Source of the DNA: Dokdonella sp.
Lineage (GTDB): Bacteria; Pseudomonadota; Gammaproteobacteria; Xanthomonadales; Rhodanobacteraceae
NCBI GenBank assembly: GCA_019634795.1
Contig: JAHCAR010000005.1
Coordinates: forward strand, 1-64,000
DNA: 64,000 nt
Direction of reading: 5' to 3'
Within the stretch, counting starts at the first letter, position 1. Each line of letters starts with the position of its first letter. The position numbers and the translations under genes were made by a program. Below are positions 39,059 through 44,427 of the stretch, piece after piece. The notes beneath the pieces are model-generated. The model made no database searches. It saw only the letters and a list, made by a program, of their open reading frames with translations, and had not been told where the DNA came from.

Positions 39059-42000
39059 TCAGTGGAAATCGCGCGACTGCGCGCCGAGCTCGGGCAGCAG
39101 GGCATCGAGATTGAGCAGGCGGTGGGCGATCACGTGCTGTACGCCCTCGCTCGATTGCAGTTCGCCCTCGACGCCGAGCACGGCGCTTTCGATCAGCACG
39201 CGGCGCTGGCTGCTGGCCAGGGCCGCCCAGACGATGACGTTGAGGATGCCGGTTTCGTCCTCGAGAGTGACGAAGGTGACGCCCTTGGCCGTGCCGGGAC
39301 GCTGACGCACGGTGACCAGGCCGGCACAACGCACGCGGCGGCCGTTGCGGCTGCCGAGCACATCGCGGGCACGCAGCATGCGTCGCGCATCGAGGGCGTC
39401 GCGGACCAGGGCCAGCGGATGCCGGCGCAGGGTGAAACCCTGGCTCGCGTAGTCGCTCATGACATCGCGGCGTAAGGACGGCGCGGCCAGGCGGATCGCT
39501 TCCTCGTTCAAGGGGGCATCGGCGATCACGGCGATCGGCTGGTCGATGCCGGCGCTGTCCCAGCGCGCCTGGTGCCGATGGCCGCTCAAGCTGCGCAGCG
39601 CATCGGCATCGGCGAGGCGTGCGCGCTCGCCGGCATTGAGGCCGGCTCGATGGACAAGATCGGCAACATCGCGGAATGCCTGTGCGTCGCGTGCAGCGAC
39701 GATGCGCTGCGCGGTCGCTTCGGCGAATCCCGAGATGCGCGAGAAGCCGAGGCGCAGGGCGAATGCCTTGTTTTCCGTGGCAGGGTCGCCTTGACCGGTG
39801 CGTTGGTCAGTTTCATGGCTTCGATGGCTGCCGCTGCGTTGCTGCTCCGTTGTAGGAGCGGCTTCAGCCGCGATGCTCTTCGGCGCCCTGTCAGAAAGCA
39901 TCGGGCCTGAAGGCTCTCCTACAAAAGGCACGTCAGCCGCGATGCCCTGGTGGCAAGGTTGAAGAAGAGCATCGCGGCTGAAGCCGCTCCTACAATGTCC
40001 ATTCTCGGATGGAGCTTCGAGCGTGCAATCCCAATCGCTGATCGTCACGTCGACCGGCAGCACGCGCACACCGTGGCGCTGCGCATCGCGGATCAGTTGG
40101 GCGGGGCCGTAGAAACCCATCGGCAGCGAGTTGAGCAGGGCGCAGGTGAAGGCGGCCGGGTGGTGGCACTTGAGCCAGGACGAGGCATAGGCGAGCAGGG
40201 CGAAACTGGCCGAGTGCGATTCGGGGAATCCGTACTCGCCGAAGCCCTTGATCTGTTCGAAGATGCGCTCGAAATAGCTCTCCTCGTAGCCATTGGCGAG
40301 CATGCCGTCGCGGATGCGCTCGCGGAACGGTTCGAGGCCGCCCTTGCGTTTCCAGGCCGCCATCGCGCGCCGCAGTTCGTCGGCCTGCCCGGGCGTGAAG
40401 CCGGCCACGACCTCGACCAGCTTCATGACCTGTTCCTGGAAGATCGGCACGCCGAGCGTGCGCTCGAGCACGGCCCTGACCTGCGACTCGCCCTGGCCGG
40501 CGGCGCGTTCGCTGGCCGACTGCGGATAGTCGATCGCTTCGAGCTGCTGCCGCCGGCGCAGGTAGGGATGCACCATGCCGCCCTGGATCGGGCCGGGGCG
40601 CACGATCGCGACCTGCACGACGAGATCGTAGAACACCGCCGGGCGCAGGCGCGGCAGCATCGACATCTGCGCGCGCGATTCGATCTGGAACACGCCGACC
40701 GTGTCGGCGGCGCGGATCATCGCATAGGTTTCCTCGTCGTCCTGCGGCACCGTGGCCAGCTCCAGTTCCCTGCCTTCGTGCATGCGCACGAGATCGAAGC
40801 ATTTGCGCAGGCAGGTCAGCATGCCGAGCGCCAGGCAATCGACCTTGAGCAGCTTGAGCGATTCGAGGTCGTCCTTGTCCCACTGGATGATCGTGCGGTC
40901 GGCCATCGCCGCGTTCTCGACCGGGACCAGGGTGTGCAGCGGATGCTCGGATATGACGAAGCCGCCGACATGCTGGGAAAGGTGGCGCGGGAAACCGCGC
41001 AACTGGGCGACCAGGCCGACCATGCGACGCATGACCGGCGCCTGCGGATCGAAGCCGCGTTCGCGCAGGGAATCAGCGATCGGCAGGTCCTCGCTGGTGT
41101 GCGCATAGGCCTGGCTGAGCTGGTCGAGCTGGTCCTCGGCCAGGCCGAGCACGCGACCGATGTCGCGCGCCGCGCTCTTGCCGCGGTAGCGGATCACCGT
41201 GGCCGCCAGCGCGGCGCGCGTGCGGCCGTACTTGGCGAACACGTACTGGATGACTTCCTCACGCCGTTCGTGCTCGAAATCGACATCGATGTCGGGCGGC
41301 TCGTCGCGCTCGATCGAGAGGAAGCGCTCGAACAGCAGGTTGCCGTGTTCGGGATCGACCGCGGTGATGCCGAGGCAGTAGCAGACCGCCGAGTTGGCCG
41401 AGGAACCGCGGCCCTGGCAGAGGATCGGCGGTTGCTGTGCGCGCGCCCAGCGCACGATGTCCTCGACGGTCAGGAAGAAATGCTCGTAGCCGAGCCGTTC
41501 GATCAGCACGAATTCATGCTCGAGCTGGCGGCTGACGCCGGCGGGAATGCCTTGCGGCCAGCGCCGGCATGCGCCGGCCAGGGTCAGTGCACGCAGATGA
41601 TCGATGGCGCGCATGCCCGGCGGCACGAGCTCGTGCGGATAGACGTAGTTGATCCCGCGCAGGTTGAAGCGGCAACGTGCGGCGATGCGCGCGGTTTCCG
41701 CGAGCAGGGCGGGCGGATGGATCGCGGCGAGATCCTCGACCCGGCGCAGGTGGCGTTCGCCGTTCGGGAACAGCGCATGGCCGGCTTCGGCGACCGTGCA
41801 GCCGAGGCGGATCGCGGTCAGCGCATCCTGCAGGGCACGCCGGCCGCGCACATGCATGTGCACGTCGCCGCTGGCAACCAGGGGCAGTCCGTGGCGCTGG
41901 CCGAGCGCCTGCAGGCGGGCGAGGGCGCCGGCATCGTCGGGTCCGCGATGCAGTTCGACCGCGATCCAGGCGCGGCCGCCGAAGCGCGCGGCGATCCATG

Positions 42001-42979
42001 CGGCGGTCGCGTCTTCGGGATCGCTCCCTTTTCCCGCACGCGGTAGCCCGATCCCTGTTTTCCACTCTCCTGCTTGCGCGAACACTTCCCCTGTATTTCC
42101 TTCACCCGTGGGCTCCACGCAGCCCGTCGTCCCGGCGAAAGCCGGGACCCAGTGACTTTGCTTTTCCATGCCTGCAACGCCGTCATGAGAGTCCCGATCC
42201 GGATCAGGACGCGGGGTGACGCGCCGCTCCATCGGCTTGCCCTCCGGGCCATTCGCTCTGCGAATGTTCGCTTCGGCATCCTGCCTCCGCAGTCCGGCTT
42301 TCGCCGGGACGATGGTGAGGGTGACGCTGGATTCCCCTGCGCTCCCTTCCTCCGCTGGCGGGGAAACGCATTCCATTTTCCCTTGTCCCGCTTGCGCGAG
42401 CACATGCTCCATTTTCCCTTCTCCCGCTTGCGCGAGCACACACTCTATTTTCCCTTCTCCCGCGTGCGGGAGAAGGTGCCGACAGGCGGATGAGGGAGCG
42501 CAGGCAGAGCGCAAGGCAGGGAGCTTGCGAGGATCCGCTGCAGGCAGAGCCGGGCCGCTCGCGGGCTGTTCCCGTTGCGCGGTGGCGGTGGGCACCCACA
42601 GCACCAGGACCTCCTCGTGCAGGGTTTCGACATCGGCGCGGCTCAACGCGTACTCGCCCTTGGCGCTGCGCCGGCGTCCCAGCGTGATGATCCGGCAGAG
42701 CTCGGAATAGGCCGCCTGCGTGCTCGCCAGCAGGACCAGTTTCGGGCCGTCATCGAGCTGCACTTCGGTACCGACGATCAGGGCGACCCCGGTCGCCTCG
42801 GAGGCTTCCAGGGCACGCACGATGCCGGCCAGCGAACACTCGTCGGTGATCGCGAGCGCGCCGTATCCGAGCTGTGCCGCACGCTCGAACAATTCGTCCG
42901 CACTCGAGGCGCCACGCTGGAAGCTGAAGTTGCTCAGCGCGTGCAGTTCGGCATACCGGGGCGGGTTCAGGCAAACCAT
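39059..42979 (-). CDS. dnaE2: Error-prone DNA polymerase DnaE2 (ImuC) enlarged by two repeat-derived insertions
   Basis: 1306 residues, against about 1080 for typical DnaE2. The PHP domain starts HALSNFSFQRGASSADELF; the Pol III alpha catalytic motif PDIDVDFEHE is at 562-571 (Asp563, 565, 567), with GRGSSANSAVCY before it and FPESHSASFALLAYASSWLK after; the C-terminal OB domain reads VRCAGLVTVRQRPGTAKGV. Two segments are foreign to the family: about 131-320 (inside PHP) and about 993-1065 (after SDWDCTLE). Both consist of dispersed repeats that stay open in this frame. The enzyme performs translesion synthesis with ImuB after DNA damage. The ATG at 42979 overlaps the imuB end by 13 bases. The catalytic residues are intact, so activity is plausible; whether the PHP/proofreading part folds is not known. 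Confidence 0.9.
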   Translation of the reverse strand: MVCLNPPRYAELHALSNFSFQRGASSADELFERAAQLGYGALAITDECSLAGIVRALEASEATGVALIVGTEVQLDDGPKLVLLASTQAAYSELCRIITLGRRRSAKGEYALSRADVETLHEEVLVLWVPTATAQREQPASGPALPAADPRKLPALRSACAPSSACRHLLPHAGEGKIECVLAQAGEGKMEHVLAQAGQGKMECVSPPAEEGSAGESSVTLTIVPAKAGLRRQDAEANIRRANGPEGKPMERRVTPRPDPDRDSHDGVAGMEKQSHWVPAFAGTTGCVEPTGEGNTGEVFAQAGEWKTGIGLPRAGKGSDPEDATAAWIAARFGGRAWIAVELHRGPDDAGALARLQALGQRHGLPLVASGDVHMHVRGRRALQDALTAIRLGCTVAEAGHALFPNGERHLRRVEDLAAIHPPALLAETARIAARCRFNLRGINYVYPHELVPPGMRAIDHLRALTLAGACRRWPQGIPAGVSRQLEHEFVLIERLGYEHFFLTVEDIVRWARAQQPPILCQGRGSSANSAVCYCLGITAVDPEHGNLLFERFLSIERDEPPDIDVDFEHERREEVIQYVFAKYGRTRAALAATVIRYRGKSAARDIGRVLGLAEDQLDQLSQAYAHTSEDLPIADSLRERGFDPQAPVMRRMVGLVAQLRGFPRHLSQHVGGFVISEHPLHTLVPVENAAMADRTIIQWDKDDLESLKLLKVDCLALGMLTCLRKCFDLVRMHEGRELELATVPQDDEETYAMIRAADTVGVFQIESRAQMSMLPRLRPAVFYDLVVQVAIVRPGPIQGGMVHPYLRRRQQLEAIDYPQSASERAAGQGESQVRAVLERTLGVPIFQEQVMKLVEVVAGFTPGQADELRRAMAAWKRKGGLEPFRERIRDGMLANGYEESYFERIFEQIKGFGEYGFPESHSASFALLAYASSWLKCHHPAAFTCALLNSLPMGFYGPAQLIRDAQRHGVRVLPVDVTISDWDCTLEAPSENGHCRSGFSRDALLQPCHQGIAADVPFVGEPSGPMLSDRAPKSIAAEAAPTTEQQRSGSHRSHETDQRTGQGDPATENKAFALRLGFSRISGFAEATAQRIVAARDAQAFRDVADLVHRAGLNAGERARLADADALRSLSGHRHQARWDSAGIDQPIAVIADAPLNEEAIRLAAPSLRRDVMSDYASQGFTLRRHPLALVRDALDARRMLRARDVLGSRNGRRVRCAGLVTVRQRPGTAKGVTFVTLEDETGILNVIVWAALASSQRRVLIESAVLGVEGELQSSEGVQHVIAHRLLNLDALLPELGAQSRDFH
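39851..39994. repeat. REP-type inverted repeat pair inside dnaE2 (144 bp block)
   Basis: Left arm 39851-39881 begins TGTAGGAGCGGCTTC; right arm 39964-39994 is its exact 31-base reverse complement. Each arm folds as GCGGCT-TC-AGCCGC. Between them lies a diverged inverted copy (about 39892-39926, TGTAGGAGAGCCTTC when read on the minus strand) and a fragment GTCAGCCGCGATGCC (about 39933). The block is 48 codons long, keeping dnaE2 in frame; its translation shows CRSGFSRDALL on one side and SIAAEAAPT on the other. The GTAG head is the hallmark of REPs moved by REP-associated tyrosine transposases; no such transposase is in the window. Confidence 0.9.
42130..42147. repeat. Palindromic dispersed repeat unit, copy 1, in dnaE2
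   Basis: TCCCGGCGAAAGCCGGGA, a perfect 7-bp hairpin with GAAA loop. Read in the dnaE2 frame it gives WVPAFAGTTG, the peptide frequently produced when this dispersed palindrome is translated. A second, oppositely oriented copy is at 42293. Confidence 0.8.
42293..42309. repeat. Palindromic dispersed repeat unit, copy 2 (inverted), in dnaE2
   Basis: TCCGGCTTTCGCCGGGA, the reverse-orientation counterpart of the unit at 42130, with one mismatch in the stem. In the dnaE2 frame it gives TIVPAKAGL, the other well-known peptide of this element. Confidence 0.75.
42372..42479. repeat. Three tandem 36-bp repeats in the PHP region of dnaE2
   Basis: Units 42372-42407, 42408-42443, 42444-42479 are contiguous and near-identical, each starting TC(C/T)ATTTTCCCTT and containing CCCGC(T/G)TGCG. 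Unit length 36 is a multiple of three, so each adds 12 residues of the type AQAGEGKMEHVL. The third ends in a palindrome around CTCCCGCGTGCGGGAG. Degenerate copies lie at about 42050-42110. There are no spacers, so this is not CRISPR. Confidence 0.9.
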
Positions 42980-44427
42980 CCCTGCAGCATCCAGTGGGCG
43001 GTCTCATCGCGCGCGACGTAGGCCCAGGCGCGCTGGCCGGCACGCGTCTGCACCACGTAGTAGTCGTGGCGGCGGTCTTCGCCATCCCACCAGCCGCTCT
43101 CGATGCGCTCGGGCCCGGCGAGGATGCGCAGCGGATCCGGGCGCAGCGGAATCGCCTTGCGCAGCAACCACAGCGGACGTGGAGGCGCACCGCGCACGGC
43201 GTGTGCCAGCGTGCGCGACGTCTTCCCGGTCGCCGCTTCACGCAGCGCCGGCTTGCCGAACGCCTGCCAGCGCCAGGCCCGCTCAGGCCGATGGTCGGCC
43301 ACTTCGAGAAAACAGCCGAGCGCCTGGTCGCCGAGGCGGGCGCGCAGGCGCTCGATCAGCACCGGCCACTCCAGGGTCTCGCGCGGATTCGTATCGAACA
43401 GGTCTTCGTGCAGCGGGCGCAGGGCGGGCAGGTCGTCGGCGACCACGTTGAGGGCATGCACCGGGGCGACCAGGGCGATGCGTTCGAGACGTGCGTGGGC
43501 CAGTTCCAGCAGCATGGCCGGATCGCGCTGGGCTTCGAGCAGGCCGACCGTGATCCGCGTCGTCGCCTGGTGTTCGTGTTCGAGGATCAGCTCGAAGGAC
43601 TGCACGCCGCCATCGCGTGCGACGAGGAAACGGCCGAGGTCGCGCAGCATGCGTTGCAGCGGAAACAGCAGCGCCTGCACGCTGTCGATGCGGTAGTCGA
43701 ATTCGAGCCGGCGCGCATAGCGGGTCGGCGGCTGGTAGCTGACCAGGGCTTCGGCCACGAGGCCACGCATGCGGTCGAGATGGGCCAGCGCCTGCGGGCC
43801 GATGCGCCGGGTCAGCTCGATACGCGGCAAGCCAAAGAGCTGGCCGAGGCGGGTCAGGCCCATGGCTGTCAAACTACTCGAAGTTTTCCTCTCAAGTCCG
43901 CAATTTTCAACGGAAATATTTCCAAGGACATTGACCAGTTGCGCTTGCGTGCTCAGCGCGATGCCATCGTGCGAGCCAGCCACCACGCGTGCGCCGGTGG
44001 CGGTCGGGGCGGCGGCCAGGCGATAAGCCAGGTTCCAGCCATCGAAATCCCCGCGCAGGCCGCGTTCCAGCGCCGCCCAGCCGCCGAAAAGCGCGAGGCT
44101 GGCGCCGATCTCGACCAGCAGTGCACGCGGCCTGGCCAGGCTCAGTTCGCCGCTGTAGCGGTAGGCCGTATCGGCCAGCAGGGTCAGCATATGCTGCTCG
44201 GCCTCGACATCCCGCCGCCAGCCCGGCAGGCCGGGCTGCAGGGCGCGCGCGGCCGCCAGCGACTGACCGGGATGCACCCCGGCCGCGCGTGCGGCGGCAT
44301 TGCTCAGGACGATGCGTGGATTGCGCAGCGGACCATCGACCAGGGCTGCGGGCGCCTCGCGCGGGCAGTCCGGCGGGCGCACGGCATCGAGCGGCAGTTC
44401 GGGAAAATACAGGCAGGCCCAGCGCAT
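42967..44427 (-). CDS. imuB: ImuB, inactive Y-family polymerase-like mutagenesis protein
   Basis: 486 residues, beginning MRWACLYFPELPLDAVRPP. It follows the Y-family fold (GWRRDVEAEQHMLTLLADTAY, then the little-finger part with ALLFPLQRMLRDLGRFL), but the acidic catalytic residues of DinB are absent, as is normal for ImuB. The C-terminus WDGEDRRHDYYVVQTRAGQR is the typical ImuB end. It bridges the beta clamp and DnaE2 during SOS mutagenesis. It overlaps dnaE2 by 13 bases. The usual upstream partner imuA (and lexA2) is not in front of it: the next gene upstream is an unrelated exported protein. Confidence 0.92.
   Translation of the reverse strand: MRWACLYFPELPLDAVRPPDCPREAPAALVDGPLRNPRIVLSNAAARAAGVHPGQSLAAARALQPGLPGWRRDVEAEQHMLTLLADTAYRYSGELSLARPRALLVEIGASLALFGGWAALERGLRGDFDGWNLAYRLAAAPTATGARVVAGSHDGIALSTQAQLVNVLGNISVENCGLERKTSSSLTAMGLTRLGQLFGLPRIELTRRIGPQALAHLDRMRGLVAEALVSYQPPTRYARRLEFDYRIDSVQALLFPLQRMLRDLGRFLVARDGGVQSFELILEHEHQATTRITVGLLEAQRDPAMLLELAHARLERIALVAPVHALNVVADDLPALRPLHEDLFDTNPRETLEWPVLIERLRARLGDQALGCFLEVADHRPERAWRWQAFGKPALREAATGKTSRTLAHAVRGAPPRPLWLLRKAIPLRPDPLRILAGPERIESGWWDGEDRRHDYYVVQTRAGQRAWAYVARDETAHWMLQGWFA

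Follow-up and report, generated by a model that had tools for sequence, protein, structure and literature searches.

The error-prone DNA polymerase gene dnaE2 of the window (the whole 64,000-nt stretch of Dokdonella sp. DNA analysed here) carries in its C-terminal part an in-frame array of GTAG-headed REPs. We consider it likely that a BIME segment of the GTAG REPIN family entered a turn of DnaE2, kept the frame and is read as an extra loop, the turn being a permissive site for such landings.

The REP array in DnaE2

The dnaE2 gene (39059..42979, minus strand) encodes a predicted error-prone DNA polymerase of 1306 aa, which scores 1414 bits against the NCBIfam profile PRK05672 (cut-off 939), and its reading frame is uninterrupted over all 1306 codons, insert included. 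From ...SDWDCTLE to ALRLG... (39761..40015, minus strand) the protein has an expanded loop of 85 aa, compared with 11 aa in the sister genome G002; the interval from LPVDVTIS to ALRLGFSRI is 327 nt long here versus 105 nt in G002, that is, +222 nt. The repeat-derived (BIME) part of this loop comprises two REPINs and a spacer, 183 nt in all (39816..39998, minus strand). The in-frame GTAG REP pair reported in the preliminary description is confirmed by two exact copies of GTAGGAGCGGCTTCAGCCGCGATG, each with a GTAG head and a short palindromic stem: REP 1 (39970..39993, minus strand), read as CRSGFSRDA, and REP 3 (39852..39875, plus strand), read as SIAAEAAPT. The pair belongs to an outer perfect inverted repeat (39850..39995), for which the 82 nt between the arms stand as first described and the lengths are corrected from 31 to 32 nt for each arm (39850-39881 and 39964-39995) and from 144 to 146 nt for the whole. 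The diverged third REP and the fragment noted between the arms, in the manner of a BIME, were likewise recovered: REP 2 (39899..39922, minus strand), of the GCGCCTTCAGGCGC type, has 2 of 24 mismatches to the genome's second REP type GTAGGAGCGCCTTCAGGCGCGATG and forms the left arm of REPIN 2, and a truncated REP (about 39931..39948, plus strand) is the right-arm remnant of REPIN 1. REP 3 and REP 2 are separated by 23 nt, and truncation has shortened one arm of the other doublet. The array is thus two tandem REPINs, one arm truncated, and the long inverted repeat is therefore the outer pairing of the array. The inter-REPIN spacer (39817..39850, minus strand) recurs next to REPs at 6 further places in the genome with 85-94% identity, and for this reason the repeat-derived part is taken to span 39816-39998. 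As single-stranded DNA the array folds at -57.6 kcal/mol (z -6.84), with 0 of 200 shuffles equally stable. Neither a target duplication nor an exact insertion boundary was found at the dnaE2 locus.

Alignment to E. coli Pol III alpha places the insert after HFHVNDDGE and before IVYGIGAIKGVG, beside NDDGE of the E. coli protein and ahead of its GIGAIKGVG. Sequence alignment to solved homologues, on which the assignment rests, suggests that the insert site is an exposed turn. The stretch after the insert would be the helix-hairpin-helix part, to judge from the alignment together with a Pfam HHH_6 match in DnaE2.

A further in-frame insertion lies in the PHP domain (42029..42583, ends approximate, minus strand) and combines repeats resembling CTTCTCCC with an inverted repeat headed by CGTC; the inverted repeat CCGTCGTCCCGGCGAAAGCCGG, with 22-nt arms at 95%, lies inside it at 42124..42315. 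The CTTCTCCC-like part is present, partly and at the protein level, in G002 too, whereas the CGTC-headed part is not, so the two parts look of different age. The earlier claim of two independent repeat families in dnaE2 agrees with these results, the number being two or three (CTTCTCCC-like and CGTC-headed in the PHP loop, and GTAG). The dnaE2 gene at L015 (G022) has a PHP loop of 181 residues, mostly alanine, threonine and serine.

Constraint on dnaE2

Between this genome and G002, dN/dS of dnaE2 is 0.149 before the insert (residues 323-986, dS 0.19) and 0.130 after it (residues 1070-1306, dS 0.37). Judged from these ratios, purifying selection acts on dnaE2 on both sides of the insert, which argues that the insert-bearing DnaE2 is probably active. 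The protein has a PDIDVDF motif, which we take to be the catalytic motif. The neighbouring imuB (42967..44427, minus strand) is 50% identical to an ORF of L104 that matches IMS; in Pfam it matched no family itself at 1e-3, and no REP insert was seen in its alignment. ImuA is encoded on another contig than dnaE2 (213.8 bits, cut-off 150). With DnaE2 above its family cut-off and ImuA and ImuB both in the genome, all members of an ImuA-ImuB-DnaE2 mutasome are present.

The preliminary description had allowed for insertions that mark a decaying gene, and a dnaE2 with two large insertions, unequal among its sisters, would suit repeats that signal lost constraint. We regard this as very improbable. 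The sequence argues against it, showing no visible decay: 1306 codons are open and PDIDVDF is kept, dN/dS stays at 0.13-0.15 upstream and downstream of the insert, and the genome has both ImuA and ImuB.

The REP family and its RAYT

A genome-wide count with the 20-mer GTAGGAGCGGCTTCAGCCGC gave 109 matches at no more than 2 mismatches in the assembly (3.87 Mb, 85% complete), versus 5 for the reversed control. The surroundings of 100 of the 109 matches were covered (2 in the window and 98 fetched, the other 9 being left out); genes around them were called with our own codon-usage caller and a retrained model, and REP cores were taken at up to 4 mismatches. The resulting 52 classed clusters (51 fetched plus that of the window) contain 145 REP cores. 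One cluster, that of dnaE2, is enclosed by a gene whose coding signal continues on either side; the other 51 were not called intragenic, where some overlapping called gene ends and two in weak-signal ORFs (L048, L074) were all counted as not inside. The family is thus mostly intergenic, as REPs had been expected to be from the start. The examined stretches contain 42 inverted REP pairs, and in 33 of them 23-26 nt separate the two REPs. On the given strand an open frame exists in 39 of 42 single REPINs, and one open frame of three in 7 of 16 two-REPIN arrays.

The search for a RAYT led to an ORF of 169 aa (L040 1408-1917) that matches the Y1 transposase profile at 31 bits (cut-off 23) and has same-family REP arrays on both sides. 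It seems to end in a degenerate REP, CATCGTGGCTAAAGCCGC (L040 1905-1925), which supplies its stop codon. The genome also holds a nearly self-palindromic repeat of about 0.95 kb (L047 2102-3076 and L067 2037-2957, also in L041, L043, L049, L069 and L071), with arms of roughly 400-800 nt that are about 76-84% complementary and with no gene called within; inverted GTAGGAGCGCCTTCAGGCGC REPs edge it in several places, and its copies in L047 and L067 had no Rfam match.

Sister species and the age of the insert

Comparison of dnaE2 among sister species, as the preliminary description had suggested, revealed both REP-free loops and loops with decayed REPs. The interval from VRVLPVDVT to ALRLGFSRI has 112 residues in the window, 38 in G002, 37 in each of G008 and G009, 69 in G007 and 71 in G005. 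No REP was found in the loops of G002 (whose DnaE2 is 93% identical over residues 300-993), G008 and G009, where the best candidate had 10-11 mismatches. In G007 the loop contains one REPIN in decayed form (5 and 3 mismatches of 24), in G005 one decayed REP (6 mismatches), all read in the frame used in the window. The REP 20-mer has 119 matches in G002, 126 in G008, 35 in G009, 8 in G003 and none in G001 and G006. G007 and G005 have 2 matches each, against 2 and 1 for the reversed controls, and are therefore at chance level, for a single 20-mer that would miss a diverged family; one of the two in G007 is the dnaE2 relic.

The DnaE2 tree groups this genome with G002 and G007 with G005, these two pairs being joined and (G008, G009) lying outside, with support of 100 at these nodes. 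Were the array older than the split from G002, perfect arms would have a probability of 0.002 to 7e-6; the arms are perfect despite a dS of 0.19-0.37, which suggests that the outer REPs arrived after that split. Gene conversion from another copy could also have renewed the arms and made them look young. Two histories fit: at least two separate hits on this loop, or a single old insertion that G002 lost and that was renewed in the present genome. A single insertion in the ancestor of this genome, G002, G007 and G005, lost in G002 and with the copy studied here refreshed by gene conversion, would account for the identical reading frame in this genome, G007 and G005 and for the equal arm spacing of the REPINs here and in G007. 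However, such spacing is a property of the family (a gap of 23-26 nt in 33 of 42 pairs), the loop sequences beyond the REPs do not visibly align, and a loss plus a refresh are required; we find this history rather doubtful.

The same turn in other bacteria

We aligned 107 DnaE2 proteins (30 from one search and 77 of 80 from a second, L119, L144 and L166 being dropped), a set in which the L098 loop is identical to that of G007. Their stop-to-stop frames (369 kb) contained 17 inverted repeats with a score of at least 15, versus 1 in one codon-shuffled set. Nine of the 17, in 9 genomes, are at the C-terminal turn, 2 are in the PHP loop (L009, L019), 1 is in L118 at position 483, and 5 are elsewhere, of which those of L102 and L158, at position 36, perhaps precede the true start. 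The turn holds GTAG REPs in L009, L100 and L102, GGGGTCAG palindromes in L118, L128 and L138, a CTCTCCC-type repeat in L106, a GTCATTGC type adjoining a GGGGTCAG motif in L130, and a CCATTCGC repeat in L019. In L100 and L102 the GTAG REP is read in another frame (VGAASAA...SRLKPLLQ), so these insertions are separate from the event in the window. The dnaE2 gene of L118 carries two GGGGTCAG palindromes, at consensus positions 483 and 829-836.

Copies of these repeats were also counted in the host genomes. A GTAG 22-mer occurs 295 times in the genome of L100, 286 times in that of L102 and 68 times in that of L101, whose loop has another repeat (controls 0), and was not found in four other genomes. 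GGGGTCAG occurs 113 times in the host of L118, 22 in that of L138, 13 in that of L130 and 8 in that of L128 (controls 0). CTCTCCC palindromes number 22 in the host of L106, 134 in that of L103, 3 in that of L122, 20 in the present genome and 23 in G002 (controls 0). GGGGTCAG fits the GGGGWSAS motif, described in the available portion of PMC3733652 as the ends of TIR-flanked tyrosine transposase units. The present genome has a second Y1 transposase, of 284 aa (G000:C2:24749-25530), about 440 nt from its only GGGGTCAG match (1 mismatch); the two are perhaps a TIR-type unit.

In 12 of 48 long loops an inverted repeat beats every background window of the same gene, and in 36 it does not. The 39 of 107 loops with at least 15 inserted residues are not usable as a frequency: the query behind the ranking contained the insert, which may have biased the list towards long loops, and some of these, in the Burkholderia group, resemble ordinary insertions of a lineage. 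As a flank control, 459 kb around dnaE2 contained 34 inverted repeats, 15 of them under an ORF of at least 150 aa. Two of 7 such ORFs compared with Pfam matched, the ImuB of L104 (clearly) and a DUF559 ORF of L106 (ambiguously, the repeat preceding the domain), and repeats in other flank genes may occur. The L104 gene (862-2586), from Rhodanobacteraceae bacterium fen_1225, has a GTAG REPIN in frame in imuB, SSFSRDAFSSRIPNKSIAAEAAPT.

Because the earlier list may favour long loops, a class sample of 114 genomes was searched with a query ending before the loop, giving 30 DnaE2 places, of which 28 loops were fetched (our own and G036 being left out) and 27 were readable (all but L190). Loops were located by alignment, a motif search having missed 7 of 28 DnaE2 and 15 of 32 DnaE1. 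Palindromic repeat units are present in 4 of the 27 DnaE2 loops: GGGGTCAG units in L184, whose loop is the same as that of L118; exact CCTCTCCC...GGGAGAGG units in L205 and L202, with 10 and 8 in their genomes; and a 39-nt tandem with CCCTCCCCGC...GCGGGGAGGG units in L186, whose genome gave no match to the CTCTCCC pattern. Host copies are shown for 3 of the 27. At the equivalent position of DnaE1, 21-29 residues long, 0 of 32 had palindromic units. In a one-sided Fisher test p is 0.039 when all 4 of 27 are counted and 0.090 when the count is limited to the 3 whose host copies are shown; since the loops were judged by eye beforehand and DnaE1 is essential, the excess in DnaE2 is a hint.

Two further explanations were rejected. 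A chance palindrome is ruled out by the genome matches (109 versus 5), the folding z of -6.84 and the codon-shuffled control (17 versus 1), and an assembly artefact by the presence of repeats at the same place in several genomes.

Tolerance, targeting or altered function

We propose that the insert derives from a BIME segment of the GTAG REPIN family resident in this genome, which the RAYT or recombination between arrays most likely supplied and which would have entered the codons of the turn between the fingers and the helix-hairpin-helix part. The array would have survived because the frame was kept: with length and frame preserved, translation of the repeat would give the polymerase an additional loop, which it would tolerate. 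Part of this scheme would be that the RAYT drove the insertion, that the insert is translated, that the turn is exposed and that the loop is tolerated and neutral. The turn may be permissive, since other bacteria carry surviving palindromic repeats of unrelated families at that place, and copies that stay in frame may persist longer than the intergenic ones. At least three unrelated palindromic families (GTAG, GGGGTCAG, CTCTCCC) at one DnaE2 turn before the helix-hairpin-helix motifs are possibly new. A wider reading, in which unrelated families land recurrently at this turn across gamma- and betaproteobacteria, coding loops serve as refuges or fossils that outlive the intergenic family, and the mutasome is perhaps remodelled, we advance tentatively, because the strict p is 0.09, the available portion of PMC3733652 gives different sites, and a single 20-mer was used in G007 and G005.

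The suggestion that dnaE2 either tolerates or attracts such insertions holds for tolerance, in view of the purifying selection, ImuA and ImuB, and the unrelated repeats at the same turn; attraction is not separated from tolerance plus survival. REP or TIR transposases that prefer this stretch of dnaE2, or a gene that is single-stranded or transcribed at the time (SOS), might explain why one turn carries three or more unrelated families, the GTAG or GGGGWSAS type tied to tyrosine transposases in the available portion of PMC3733652 accounting for two, and why 32 DnaE1 have none. Yet tolerance and survival would yield an identical pattern, the control gene DnaE1 is essential and therefore cannot separate the two, the aligned flanks have no visible shared target motif, and PMC3733652, in that portion, reports different sites within gene classes; targeting of this kind seems improbable to us. 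Slightly less credible still is retention of the inserts for a change in the polymerase (fidelity, partner or clamp contacts) that favours mutator lineages, a speculation found in the same source. It would fit a mutasome hit repeatedly, DnaE2 in several genomes and ImuB in L104 with its in-frame GTAG REPIN, and dnaE2 as the sole gene called as hit among the 52 clusters here, but family, frame and length vary among the inserts, those of G007 and G005 have a decayed look, G002 has none, and no peptide shared by the families was noticed. Tolerated landing remains our preferred reading.

Relation to previous work and significance

REPs inside DnaE2 are of a known kind, reported in 2013: the available portion of PMC3733652 (BMC Genomics 2013, 14:522) describes GTAG and CGTC REPs inside genes, DnaE2 among them. 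As here, GTAG REPs and dimers lie in genes that are sometimes the only ones hit in their species, and both harmless loops and mutator effects are weighed. Unlike the present analysis, that portion compares neither sister empty sites and ages nor one DnaE2 position across families, and it places the REPs of other same-class genes at different sites, recB of two Xanthomonas species excepted. REPINs and RAYTs, as presented in the parts of PMC3116915 and PMC2817692 available, share with our array the inverted REP doublets, the set spacing and an adjoining tyrosine transposase gene; the REPINs of PMC3116915 are extragenic, whereas ours is inside a gene, and the three commonest 16-mers of SBW25 occur 1,067 times, with only 14 of these occurrences overlapping genes, according to the same part. 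Rickettsia palindromic elements (RPE, as cited in PMC3733652) are also palindromic repeats in frame, in many genes, but represent other sequence families in another host, whereas here one gene is hit among 52 clusters; the likeness, as far as that citation goes, is in the mode of working only. In titles and abstract openings of the open-licence literature, no paper dealt with a DnaE2 position shared by unrelated families, with empty sites in sisters or with REP relics in coding loops; the recurrent DnaE2 position is possibly the new part.

REPs are treated as extragenic; here the sister species of one genus show the loop without a REP, with a young insertion in frame and with decayed remnants, a series in which in-frame REPs can be followed from entry through ageing. 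Should the DnaE2 turn prove a genuine hotspot, selfish repeats would repeatedly add sequence to a mutation-making polymerase, a testable link between mobile DNA and mutagenesis on which the available portion of PMC3733652 had speculated.
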